Positions 38,440 to 45,392 of a stretch of DNA of 64,000 nt are shown here, in pieces; position 1 is the first letter of the stretch, and every line of letters starts with the position of its first letter. Under the pieces are notes generated by a model. It did no database searches and was not told where the DNA came from. It saw only the letters and a list, made by a program, of their open reading frames with translations. The position numbers and the translations under genes are program-made. The DNA is from Mucilaginibacter sp. (GTDB lineage Bacteria > Bacteroidota > Bacteroidia > Sphingobacteriales > Sphingobacteriaceae), in NCBI GenBank assembly GCA_025352225.1, contig JANXTT010000135.1, forward strand, positions 1-64,000. Direction: 5' to 3'.

Positions 38440-39743
38440 CTGCTAAGTGCTTCTTTAAAGATCTTTAAACAACGTTCACGTGCAAAAACGTGCGCTACAA
38501 TGGGTTTCGGATACTGGGTAAAATCAGCATACTCCGGCACCCATTTTTTTATGTACTCCAATTGGGGGTCAAATTTTTTCATTTGCGTTTCCGGATTAAA
38601 GATCCTGAAATAAGGGGCTGCATCAGTACCCGATCCGGCGGCCCATTGCCAGCCGCCTACATTACTTGCCATTTCATAGTCTAAAAGCTTCGTTGCAAAA
38701 TAGCGTTCGCCCCAGCGCCAGTCAATCAACAAGTGTTTGCTTAAAAAGCTTGCCGTTACCATGCGTACACGGTTGTGCATGTAACCTGTGGCATTGAGTT
38801 CGCGCATGCCTGCATCAACTAGCGGGTAGCCGGTTTTACCATCGCACCAAGCATTAAATTCAACCTCGTTGTTACGCCATTTTATACGGTCGTATTCTGG
38901 CCTGAAAGCATGGTTGGCCATATGCGGAAAGTGAAACAAGATCATCATATAAAAGTCGCGCCAGATCAATTCATTCAGCCAGGTTTTTTCTGTAGCGTTA
39001 TTAGCGTCACGGGCCAATTGCCTAATGCTAATAGTGCCAAATCGTAAATGTAAACCTATATGTGAGGTGCCGTTTATTCCTGGATAGTCACGCTTGTTTA
39101 CATAATCCCTAATAATAGGCTTATAGCTTTTATTCGGAAATTTAAGTGAACTTAGCTCAAAGCCAATAGCATTTAAATCCGGCACTTTTAATGGCCCTGT
39201 GTTATAGAGATTTTCAAGATACTTTTCAGTAGGATATGATTTTAAATAAAAATCATTCAGCTTTCCATACCATTTGCGTTTATATGGGGTAAATACGGTA
39301 TAAGGCTTTTGGTCATCTTTTACAACTTCGTTTTTCTCAAATATAACCTGGTCCTTATAGGTATAGTAAGGGATGTCTTTTTTATCCAGTTTATGTTCTA
39401 TGGCATTATCACGTGCCTGCGCATAGGGTTCATAATCATGGTTAGTATAAACTGCGGCCACGTTAAACTCTTGCAGAACCTCATCCCAGGCGTTAAGTGG
39501 CGAGGCGTATTTTATAAGCATCGAGGAGTTAAGACGACTTAGCTCATGATATAAAGCTTGTATGGTTTGGTAAATAAATGTTACCCGCGCATCTTTTTTA
39601 TCGTCAAGTTTATCTAATATTTCAGGATCGAAAATAAACAGTGGCAATACCGGATGGCCACCTTTTAACGCATGGAACAAACCTGCATTATCATGGAGCC
39701 TTAAATCACGTCGAAACCAAAATACACTAACGGTTTGCTGCAT
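38436..39743 (-). CDS. phrB: Deoxyribodipyrimidine photolyase
   Basis: A 435-residue class I photolyase that repairs cyclobutane pyrimidine dimers using blue light. The N-terminal Rossmann antenna domain starts VSVFWFRRDLRLHDNAGL. The FAD domain has the landmarks RLRFGTIS-type segment (HLRFGTISIRQ), ELIWRDFYMMILFHFP, CDGKTGYPLVDAGMREL, HNRVRMVTASFLSKHLLIDWRWGERYF and VGGWQWAAGSGTDAAPYFRIFNP. Full length, standalone gene. It ends in a 4-bp overlap with the FKBP gene, with both stops read from the same CTAG. Confidence 0.95.
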   Translation of the reverse strand: MQQTVSVFWFRRDLRLHDNAGLFHALKGGHPVLPLFIFDPEILDKLDDKKDARVTFIYQTIQALYHELSRLNSSMLIKYASPLNAWDEVLQEFNVAAVYTNHDYEPYAQARDNAIEHKLDKKDIPYYTYKDQVIFEKNEVVKDDQKPYTVFTPYKRKWYGKLNDFYLKSYPTEKYLENLYNTGPLKVPDLNAIGFELSSLKFPNKSYKPIIRDYVNKRDYPGINGTSHIGLHLRFGTISIRQLARDANNATEKTWLNELIWRDFYMMILFHFPHMANHAFRPEYDRIKWRNNEVEFNAWCDGKTGYPLVDAGMRELNATGYMHNRVRMVTASFLSKHLLIDWRWGERYFATKLLDYEMASNVGGWQWAAGSGTDAAPYFRIFNPETQMKKFDPQLEYIKKWVPEYADFTQYPKPIVAHVFARERCLKIFKEALSS

Positions 39744-39810
39744 TAATTAATTTAATTAGGGCAACGCATATTTAGCTAAAAGGTTTGGATATTAAAACAA
39801 CCATGCCAAT

Positions 39811-43527: not shown

Positions 43528-43770
43528 CTAATAAATACCCTGAAAGAAGCCAGACAACGAAACATCAAAATAATAACAGATCTTTCTAAGTGTATCCAAC
43601 CTAATATCTACTTTGCCTGATTCTAAACGGGCTATGTTAATGTTGGTTTCGCTGTAAAACTTTTCCTGACTAACCTGATTTTGCCTTCGCAGACGTTTGA
43701 TCTGAAGGGCTACCTTTTTTTTGAAGGCAATTTCGGAAGTATTAAGATATTCAAAATCAGTTAGAAGCAT
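43528..43770 (-). CDS. XRE family HTH regulator
   Basis: An 80-residue single-domain Cro/C1-type regulator: FKKKVALQIKRLRRQNQVSQEKFYSETNINIARLESGKVDIRLDTLRKICYYF. The helix 2-turn-helix 3 (VSQEKFYSETNINIARLE) is complete. It ends 12 bp before pnuC on the same strand, so it is the first gene of the NR-salvage operon and may regulate it; no ligand domain is present. It could equally be a general small repressor carried along. Confidence 0.85.
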   Translation of the reverse strand: MLLTDFEYLNTSEIAFKKKVALQIKRLRRQNQVSQEKFYSETNINIARLESGKVDIRLDTLRKICYYFDVSLSGFFQGIY

Positions 43771-43950
43771 ATGGCAGCATGAATAGATAAATATAGAAAA
43801 AAAATATTGTTTTTATAAATATTTAAAAGTAGCATAAAAGATAGCTAATTATATAAACAATTAAAATAAAGCGATAAATTTTTAACCTTTGTAAAAGTTG
43901 TAATTAAAATGATTGAAAATAAATTAAAATTCCTGACGTATTAGTATTTG

Positions 43951-44161
43951 TTTTAAACCCTCAAGGCACTTAACTTTGATATCAACAAAAGGCCCTACCA
44001 GCCCTATGAAATAAAAAGACATTCACATCTACCAATGAAAAATGTTTTTGTTTTGAATTCTCAGACGCCCATGCTGAGTGATTTTTGTTCTTTGTTTGGG
44101 TTTAATCAATAGTTTAAATTAATTAGGGGAAAGGGAGCTTCAAAAAAGCTCTCTTTTTTTT
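43951..44161 (+). ncRNA. Candidate structured small RNA (about 200 nt), possibly 6S-like
   Basis: Between two divergent genes (XRE on minus, acyl-CoA dehydrogenase on plus) a plus-strand intrinsic terminator at 44133-44161 has no gene upstream of it, so it must end a separate short transcript. The sequence folds end to end: TTAAACCC (43953-43960) pairs with GGGTTTAA (44098-44105), next inward CAAGG (43962-43966) with CTTTG (44089-44093), then CACT with AGTG. An internal CTCAG/CTGAG hairpin (44060-44077) adds structure. A near-consensus -7 box, TAGTATTTG, lies at 43942-43950. A 25-codon ORF (44035-44112) inside it is an alternative explanation. The 6S idea rests only on the closing-stem shape and size. 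Confidence 0.55.
44133..44161 (+). terminator. Intrinsic terminator of the candidate sRNA
   Basis: GAGCTT and AAGCTC form the core stem around a CAAAA-type loop, extended by G-T and G-C pairs outward, followed by eight T residues (44154-44161). It is upstream of, and does not belong to, the 44253 gene. Confidence 0.85.
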
Positions 44162-44177
44162 GTTAAAAACATTTTAC

Positions 44178-44204
44178 TATGCATGCATAATATTATTATA
44201 TTTG
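44178..44204 (+). promoter_or_regulatory. MarR-type operator and promoter of the acyl-CoA dehydrogenase gene
   Basis: TATGCATGCATA (44178-44189) matches the TATGCNNGCATA palindrome found twice in the marR promoter. A perfect -7 box, TATATTTG, follows at 44197-44204, about 49 bp before the ATG at 44253. The operator occupies the -33 position, so bound repressor would block initiation. Confidence 0.75.
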
Positions 44205-44252: not shown

Positions 44253-45392
44253 ATGGACTTTAATTTATCAGAAGAACAGTTAATGATTAGGCAAGCCGCC
44301 CGCGATTTTGCCAACACCGAGCTTAAGCCCGGTGTTATTGATCGCGACGAGCATCAGCAGTTTCCGGCTGAGCAAGTTAAAAAGCTGGGAGAGCTTGGCT
44401 TTTTAGGGATGATGGTTGATCCAAAATACGGCGGCAGCGGAATGGATACCATATCATATGTGCTGGTAATGGAAGAGCTCTCAAAAATAGACGCCTCCGC
44501 GTCGGTAGTAGTATCTGTAAACAATTCCCTGGTATGTTACGGCCTTGAGCATTACGCCAACGAAGAACAGAAGCAGAAATATTTGATACCCTTAGCAAAA
44601 GGTGAAGTAATAGGAGCTTTTTGCCTTTCAGAGCCCGAAGCCGGCTCGGATGCTACATCACAGCATACAACTGCTATTGATATGGGCGATTATTATTTGC
44701 TTAACGGAACTAAAAACTGGATAACCAATGGCAACTCGGCCTCCACATACCTTGTTATGGCACAAACAGATGTATCTAAGGGGCACCATGGCATTAATAC
44801 CCTAATTGTAGAACGGGGTATGGAAGGTTTTACAATAGGCAAAAAAGAAAATAAGCTTGGGATACGCGGTTCGGATACCCACTCTCTGATGTTCACTGAC
44901 GTTAAAGTACCCAAGCAAAACAGAATAGGTGATGACGGCTTTGGATTTAAATTTGCCATGAAAACGTTGGATGGCGGCCGCATCGGCATAGCTTCACAAG
45001 CGTTGGGTATTGCATCAGGAGCTTTTGAGCTGGCTTTGCATTACAGTAAGGAGCGCAAAACGTTTGGTAAGCCCATTGCTGAGCATCAATCCGTTCAGTT
45101 TAAATTGGCAGATATGGCTACAGAGATAGAAACTGCCCGGCTGTTATGTTTTAAAGCTGCCTGGTTAAAAGATACTGGGCAGCCTTATGGGCAGGCAAGC
45201 GCTATGGCTAAGCTATATGCATCCGAGGTAGCAATGCGCACCACAATAGAGGCCGTGCAGATACACGGTGGATATGGCTTTGTAAAAGAATACCATGTGG
45301 AACGTTTAATGCGCGATGCCAAGATCACCCAGATATATGAAGGAACATCCGAAATACAGAAGATAGTTATCGCACGTGAGATTCTGAAATAA
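44253..45392 (+). CDS. Short-chain-type acyl-CoA dehydrogenase
   Basis: A 379-residue acyl-CoA dehydrogenase of the classical four-domain length (short/branched-chain or butyryl-CoA type). Motifs: MDFNLSEEQLMIRQAARDFA, FCLSEPEAGSDATSQ, NGTKNWITNGNSAS, and the C-terminal QIHGGYGFVKEYHVERLMRD with QIYEGTSEIQ carrying the catalytic Glu. It complements the long-chain FadE at 34.9 kb and appears to be under the same MarR operator. Substrate chain length is inferred from size only. Confidence 0.93.
   Translation: MDFNLSEEQLMIRQAARDFANTELKPGVIDRDEHQQFPAEQVKKLGELGFLGMMVDPKYGGSGMDTISYVLVMEELSKIDASASVVVSVNNSLVCYGLEHYANEEQKQKYLIPLAKGEVIGAFCLSEPEAGSDATSQHTTAIDMGDYYLLNGTKNWITNGNSASTYLVMAQTDVSKGHHGINTLIVERGMEGFTIGKKENKLGIRGSDTHSLMFTDVKVPKQNRIGDDGFGFKFAMKTLDGGRIGIASQALGIASGAFELALHYSKERKTFGKPIAEHQSVQFKLADMATEIETARLLCFKAAWLKDTGQPYGQASAMAKLYASEVAMRTTIEAVQIHGGYGFVKEYHVERLMRDAKITQIYEGTSEIQKIVIAREILK

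Follow-up and report, generated by a model that had tools for sequence, protein, structure and literature searches.

The window, i.e., the whole stretch of 64,000 nt of Mucilaginibacter DNA analysed here, comes from a genome of 4.56 Mb. At the locus under study a divergent gene for an 80-aa XRE/HTH_3 regulator lies on the minus strand at 43528-43770 (PF01381, 25.3 bits, cut-off 23), and an acyl-CoA dehydrogenase gene, identified by Pfam and the usual downstream neighbour, lies on the plus strand at 44253-45392. The intergenic region carries a plus-strand hairpin, AAAGGGAGCTTC...AAGCTCTCTTT, followed by eight T residues at 44154-44161, and by its fold this is an intrinsic terminator (44130-44161). 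Because it sits between a minus-strand HTH gene and the plus-strand acyl-CoA dehydrogenase gene, it ends neither neighbour. A first-pass annotation had described such an orphan hairpin between genes on divergent strands, and both sequence and fold confirm it. The terminator stem, compared by eye, differs on both sides among copies (GGGAGC/GCTCTC, GAGAAC/GTTCTC and, in a paralogue, GAGGGTGC/GTACCCTC). A simple terminator scan misses the hairpin and returns a single match, on the minus strand at 44005-43989. The orphan terminator is real and very probably ends a small RNA. A palindrome, TATGCATGCATA, is located at 44178-44189 between the terminator and the acyl-CoA dehydrogenase gene and is retained in many of 30 aligned copies; it is probably an operator of that gene, and a TetR-type site would be our guess.

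The predicted small RNA is about 178 nt long and extends from 43984 to 44161 on the plus strand, a unit that is conserved in 110 aligned copies and whose 5′ end is deduced from the -7 box of its promoter. The -33 box TTTG (43947-43950) is found 20 nt before a -7 box, TAACTTTG (TAnnTTTG), at 43971-43978. The latter stands out in the alignment of the 110 copies, which was built without regard to promoters, as part of a conserved upstream block TGGC..TAnnTTTGT; here TGGC displays 96-100% and TTTG 94-100% conservation per column, the TA part is less conserved, and the -33 box region is variable (40-70% per column). The -33/-7 consensus is that of Bacteroidota sigma-ABfr promoters (available text of PMC7366714). 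As the -7 box sits at -12 to -5 relative to the start (available text of PMC9723704), transcription should begin near 43983-43984.

The first-pass annotation had reported a near-consensus promoter; the promoter is of the Bacteroidota type, and a sigma-70 scan shows no excess in the window (5 sites vs 4.2 expected). The 5′ end had been placed at 43951-43957, with a closing arm TTAAACCC at 43953-43960. That arm is not conserved and is found between the -33 and -7 boxes, in the spacer of a conserved promoter, and thus the proposed 5′ end is wrong by about 30 nt. The claim that the preceding 200 bases fold end to end is not confirmed either, the fold being near chance (z -1.4, with 14 of 200 shuffles equally good). 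With such an unremarkable single-sequence fold, the case for an RNA rests on comparison.

In a blastn search with 43930-44170, 34 of 37 genus genomes matched strongly (E at most 1.3e-28), the exceptions being G003, G014 and G017, and the 23 genomes from other families had no match below E 0.005. The complement of the RNA's most conserved part, termed the core, was searched for with up to 3 mismatches and has matches in 144 of 149 genus genomes, not each of which was checked to be the RNA itself. The core pattern also identified 113 stretches in named genomes; the best 80 of these 113 are from Mucilaginibacter (74) and from Bacteroidetes/Sphingobacteriaceae bacteria (6), with Bacteroides absent among these 80 matches. 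It was not found in viral contigs. With a covariance model of the 3′ part of the RNA, all 19 genus genomes searched score 115-146 bits, and the best score in 132 genomes of other genera is 35 bits; 7 of the latter match at E <=0.01, these E-values being rough. By these searches the RNA is not recognised outside the genus Mucilaginibacter. Within this genus of soil bacteria it appears to have been retained almost unchanged, and the genus-wide conservation of promoter, RNA and terminator backs the small RNA gene that had been proposed from the window.

Several elements of the RNA are conserved. A block, CATCTACC, at 44026-44033 shows 86-99% conservation per column in the 110 copies, with CTACC missing from the searched stretch in 6 of them. 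Downstream, a hairpin with the stem CUCAG/CUGAG and the loop ACGCCCA(A/U)G at 44060-44078 displays covariation in 33 sequences: 98.2% of cells are paired and two-sided changes are found at three of the five pairs. Of the five cells with such changes, four belong to the three paralogue rows and the fifth to a copy of the main locus. Covariance across Mucilaginibacter copies, proposed as a check in the earlier work, is seen in this 5-bp hairpin. The loop CCCA (44068-44071) could form a pseudoknot with TGGG (44097-44100), with 97.6% of cells paired; four of the five pairs involved are invariant, so that covariation neither proves nor refutes it. The long-range pairing in the consensus fold is limited to a short one of 5 bp.

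The core, GGGTTTAATCAATAGTTTAAATTAATTAGGGG, comprises the 32 nt at 44098-44129, just before the terminator in the 3′ third of the RNA. It is conserved at 100% per column (rounded) in the 110 copies, with one change in a paralogue. The invariance in the alignment is partly by construction, as copies were collected by a pattern over 29 core positions (five contig-end copies were dropped from the collected set); the blastn search with 43930-44170, which is free of this bias, shows the same conserved block. In predicted ensembles the probability of being unpaired is 0.3-0.8 for the core's AU part, and the G runs are mainly paired; in 14 of the 110 rows a TTTG downstream of the conserved box was chosen, and the RNAs in these rows were shortened in the accessibility estimate.

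Second copies of the RNA are found beside a DNA polymerase IV (DinB/IMS) gene in three genomes, at L035 (G000:C80:5864-5958, the window's own genome, where Pfam was run), L037 (G023:C12:206231-206336) and L038 (G029:C47:114374-114423). All three have the hairpin stem altered on both sides and retain the loop GCCCA and the core. L289 in G177 resembles these DNA polymerase IV-linked copies.

Additional short blastn matches cluster on the core and many of them, read on the other strand, directly precede a start codon. When the core 23-mer was searched with up to 3 mismatches, 27 extra sites were detected in the 37 genus genomes vs 8 with a backward control, whereas 132 other-genus genomes gave 30 sites vs 31 with the control (difference in extra-site excess, p 0.009; the counts of 23-mer and 22-mer matches were made by hand from tables). 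A core 22-mer gave 220 matches in 144 genomes, 76 of them beyond one per genome, with at least five of the 76 being second RNA copies; the backward control gave 45 matches in 149 genomes, which leaves a modest excess. With 3 mismatches allowed, many sites must be due to chance (76 extra vs 45 control).

The sites were classified by the presence, within 40 nt, of an ATG that opens an open reading frame of at least 60 codons. Of 70 genus sites, 26 have such an ATG on the antisense strand and 3 have one on the sense strand, L045 counting on both (binomial p 1.5e-5). These 70 are the 27 sites of the 23-mer search and 43 of 47 extra sites among the 22-mer matches listed; L044 was already in the first set, and G015:C18, G241:C263 and G269:C5 were left out, as were second small RNA copies, contig-end copies and DNA polymerase IV paralogues throughout. 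In other genera, 20 of the 30 sites were classified, with 4 antisense and 4 sense ATGs (between groups, Fisher p 0.027); the share of sites at antisense ATGs, 26/70 vs 4/20, is not significant when taken alone (p 0.19). In the window's own genome, the 17 short matches that lie outside both RNA loci include 7 with an antisense and none with a sense ATG under a looser rule. The ATGs at two of these seven antisense sites (L401, L405) have the look of internal Met codons. Of the 17 matches, L389 and L391 are also in the set of 70. On these counts the placing of near-complements at start codons is both strand- and genus-specific.

It should be noted that other tests gave no such signal. In 0.8 Mb of the genus genome G010, the 631 start regions show no general excess of complementarity over shuffles, and what stands out is single strong sites; thus strong targets must be few, and by the same measure this speaks against a broad regulon. 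The start-codon sites show no enrichment of wobble-keeping changes, with 11 keeping and 9 breaking transitions among 66 mismatches. The motif TAnnTTTG is present upstream of 7 of 30 targets on the gene strand and of 7 of 30 on the other strand, and being equal on both strands these boxes lend no support to a transcript at every site. A general start-region consensus of the clade was considered as the source of the sites and rejected, since no excess is seen in the 631 regions of G010 or in 325 regions of the outgroup genome G183, and since sites are not in excess in other genera. What the comparison does point to is an accessible, conserved seed that is complementary to start regions of unlinked mRNAs, with global-enrichment and wobble tests that do not support it.

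The recurrent candidate targets include genes for lipoproteins that we take to be LruC-like, found with a complement of the core in four genomes (L307, L308, L309 and L292). Three of the four encode DUF4842 and DUF4114 domains, and L292, which is cut, has no Pfam match. Duplex energies at LruC-like sites are -34, -42 and -48 kcal/mol, whereas shuffles lie at about -18 to -20 and none of 300 reaches such a low value. Protein similarity, rather than the pattern, led to L309; its start region gives -48.1 kcal/mol vs -19.4 +/- 3.8 for shuffles, and by eye its four departures from a perfect complement each retain a G-U pair. Four LruC-like relatives without the site, three of them from the same genomes, form duplexes at shuffle level, and among the other LruC-like start regions listed, the highest score, 14.5, belongs to a 17-nt partial match at L311, the remaining ones reaching at most 11.

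Seven further targets beat 300 of 300 shuffles, as is to be expected of sites picked by complementarity. A target lipoprotein with a dioxygenase domain recurs in G023 and G177. Strong targets mostly differ between species. The window's own genome has targets that encode an FKBP-type prolyl isomerase lipoprotein, an LTXXQ-family protein (presumably of the Spy/CpxP type), an M3 peptidase whose start resembles that of a lipoprotein, and a small lipoprotein-like protein that lacks a Pfam match. Other targets are a TonB-dependent receptor, an L,D-transpeptidase, beta-helix, MBG- and PKD-domain proteins, an alpha-L-fucosidase, MFS and potassium transporters, an ECF sigma factor and an RRM protein. 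By a hydropathy rule, an N-terminal signal or transmembrane stretch is present in 20 of 30 target proteins (from 25 of the 26 antisense sites and 5 of the 7 own-genome ones) vs 239 of 633 background open reading frames (p 0.002), which suggests an envelope theme among the targets.

Two single sites should also be mentioned. At L080 (G022:C15:43993-44015) a complement is located 33 nt before the start of a gene for a 118-aa RRM_1 RNA-binding protein. A resemblance of this protein to RbpB of Bacteroides would be a guess, and the site could possibly represent feedback on an RNA chaperone. Within the window, the start region of a minus-strand DNA photolyase gene (PF00875/PF03441; start codon at 39743) has the complement TTGCCCTAATTAAATTAA at 39747-39764. 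It is a weak candidate: its score of 13 is the best among the window's start regions, and the duplex of this 18-nt site, at -21.0 kcal/mol, is near the -15 to -20 shuffle means for other targets.

We consider it likely that the locus encodes a trans-acting RNA of about 178 nt that acts by base-pairing and blocks translation initiation of a few genes, largely of the envelope. A housekeeping-type Bacteroidota promoter would transcribe the RNA and its own terminator would end it. The invariant, largely unpaired core, UUUAAUCAAUAGUUUAAAUUAAUUAGGGG, may then anneal to complements 0-40 nt upstream of start codons, and this pairing would keep ribosomes from starting on a small number of mRNAs, many of them for lipoproteins and for secreted, outer-membrane or membrane proteins. 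The RNA is presumably transcribed and paired in the cell, and from the position of the sites we infer repression of the targets rather than activation. With sequence signals for an independent promoter and terminator in an intergenic region, the locus would fall among the trans-encoded base-pairing small RNAs of the Bacteroidota, its function being deduced from sequence.

A conserved RNA that mainly binds a protein, be it a chaperone, RNA polymerase or a sequestered regulator, with start-codon complements that are minor or accidental, is a good deal less probable but should be considered. The 32-nt core is nearly invariant despite the turnover of targets and exceeds what seed pairing usually needs, and the missing general enrichment in start regions and missing wobble signal also speak for a protein ligand. 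However, such a role would not account for near-complements that lie at start codons in a strand- and genus-specific manner, nor for the recurrence of LruC-like and dioxygenase-domain targets.

An improbable alternative is that the conserved sequence is a leader or cis-acting element, such as an attenuator, of the acyl-CoA dehydrogenase gene, without a free RNA. That gene does lie downstream in the same orientation in 118 of 151 rows, a total that includes redundant rows and cut contigs. It is absent, however, from several rows with about 1.5 kb or more of downstream sequence (e.g., L014, L022, L023, L025 and L027), the three second copies adjoin a DNA polymerase IV gene instead, and the conserved TATGCATGCATA, situated past the terminator but before the gene, points to a separate control region for the latter. 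On the strength of the second copies and the other contexts, a cis leader was rejected as the main role.

Still less probable is that the RNA serves as 6S RNA in this genus, sequestering RNA polymerase by imitating an open promoter, as its size and supposed closing stem had suggested. The RNA is similar to 6S (RF00013) in length and, like both RF00013 and 6S-Flavo (RF01685), has one main copy in nearly every genome; 6S occurs in Bacteroides (available text of PMC7366714), and no other 6S was detected, neither RF00013 nor RF01685 giving a match above cut-off in 37 genus genomes including the window's own. But neither model matches the RNA. An Rfam search of the window gave no match at gathering score, and at E up to 10 the region of the locus gave five matches at chance level, with neither 6S family among them. 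A 6S-type closing stem around a large central bulge is not found either: the arm in question is unconserved promoter DNA, and the conserved structure comprises a 5-bp hairpin, a possible pseudoknot, short long-range pairings and the terminator, not a long bulged rod. The 6S identity was rejected on the Rfam searches at two thresholds, the family search of the 37 genomes and the promoter position. As a separate observation, L031 (G017:C2:29665-29830) shows a weak RF00013 match of 31.4 bits, below the cut-off of 46.4; its DNA has matches in 8 of 61 genus genomes, itself counted. Genome G017 is 61% complete, and the RNA described here was not found in it.

A short gene of 25 codons at 44035-44112, which had been offered as the alternative to a 6S-like RNA, has next to nothing in its favour, for the frame is open in the window, yet a frame with the same stop is intact in only 3 of 110 copies, the start being replaced or the frame shifted or stopped elsewhere; by the comparison of this frame among copies, the RNA is non-coding.

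Of 108 copies with sufficient upstream DNA, 46 have the XRE/HTH_3 gene next to the RNA. A degenerate palindrome, whose family form is TGACGNNNNCGTCA, is located at the -33 box (43934-43947) and co-occurs with this gene: with up to 2 mismatches and 130-260 nt before the core, TGACGNNNNCGTCA is present in 28 of the 46 copies with the XRE gene and in 3 of the 62 without it (p 1e-10), a co-occurrence that is in part accounted for by the shared ancestry of the clade. The window's own palindrome has 3 mismatches relative to TGACGNNNNCGTCA. By this association the palindrome is probably a regulator site and the XRE protein a candidate regulator of the RNA; the divergent XRE-type regulator would probably set the RNA level via the palindrome at the -33 box in some members of the genus. 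A similar palindrome is seen by eye upstream of the DNA polymerase IV-linked paralogues L035 and L037. A search for Hfq (PF17209) gave no match in 21 genomes (13 of the genus, including the window's own, and 8 others) and matches in 5 of 14 control genomes. Thus the encoded Hfq that marks an Hfq-dependent small RNA was not found in the 21 genomes examined.

The core is also found in other settings. The sequence AGTTTAAATTAATTAGGG, or a close form of it, is present on the sense strand near or before a terminator at L287, L103/L340 and L296/L342, and in a shorter form at L111. These small-RNA-like loci are otherwise different, with nothing but this motif in common, and may represent a family of seeds. 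In antisense orientation, the core is found directly before terminators at L043 (G000:C139:5501-5530, the window's own genome), L293, L297 and L304, and are candidates for 3′ UTR sites or sponge RNAs. The G000:C139 copy was rejected as a conserved sponge RNA: at E <=0.001, 8 of 149 genomes match, its own counted, and the other seven matches are pieces of less than 50 nt, some of them the RNA's own core.

A wider idea can be put forward tentatively, and as a whole we hold it to be possible rather than likely: a genus-wide guide RNA, in which a frozen 30-nt guide is shared wholly or partly by several small-RNA-like loci of otherwise different sequence, beside DNA polymerase IV and elsewhere, and a fluid set of mRNA targets, many of them for surface proteins, acquires long near-perfect complements at start codons. 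This would take place in a clade without a recognisable Hfq, with a dedicated XRE regulator that sets the RNA level and with antisense sponges, such as the G000:C139 copy, that perhaps buffer it in some genomes.

Regulatory RNAs seem to have received far less study in the Bacteroidota than in Proteobacteria, and our literature search, judged by titles, found no paper on a small RNA of Mucilaginibacter. In bacteria in which no Hfq was detected, the locus provides candidate targets along with a promoter and a seed, and makes it possible to test how a near-invariant seed is reconciled with targets that change between species.

The closest known systems, as given in the available text of the papers cited, are from Bacteroides and Flavobacterium. 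FopS is a multicopy small RNA family of Bacteroides thetaiotaomicron with a shared seed and canonical sigma-ABfr promoters; by pairing close to the start codons of SusC-like outer-membrane mRNAs, the seed prevents their translation (PMC11697453). The Mucilaginibacter RNA would resemble FopS in the pairing of a seed at the translation start and in having outer-membrane targets, and GibS of Bacteroides in seed pairing at the translation start (PMC7366714), the likeness to both being one of proposed mode of action. The seed of FopS, however, is at the 5′ end (consensus positions 1-21), with 14 paralogues in one genome (PMC11697453), and GibS has its seed in the 5′ portion and metabolic targets (PMC7366714). 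In contrast, the Mucilaginibacter seed is not at the 5′ end but in the 3′ third beside the terminator, and the RNA has one main copy and few relatives. Rfp18 of Flavobacterium psychrophilum is likewise a genus-conserved intergenic small RNA, predicted to target metalloproteases and a secreted adhesin by means of a single pairing region; it differs in that this region is a stem-loop and in belonging to another bacterial family, and since a target mRNA is reduced in its deletion mutant it may activate (PMC9723704). With a locus now in hand, it can be tested whether small RNA control of surface proteins, known from FopS, has arisen again with a different RNA.
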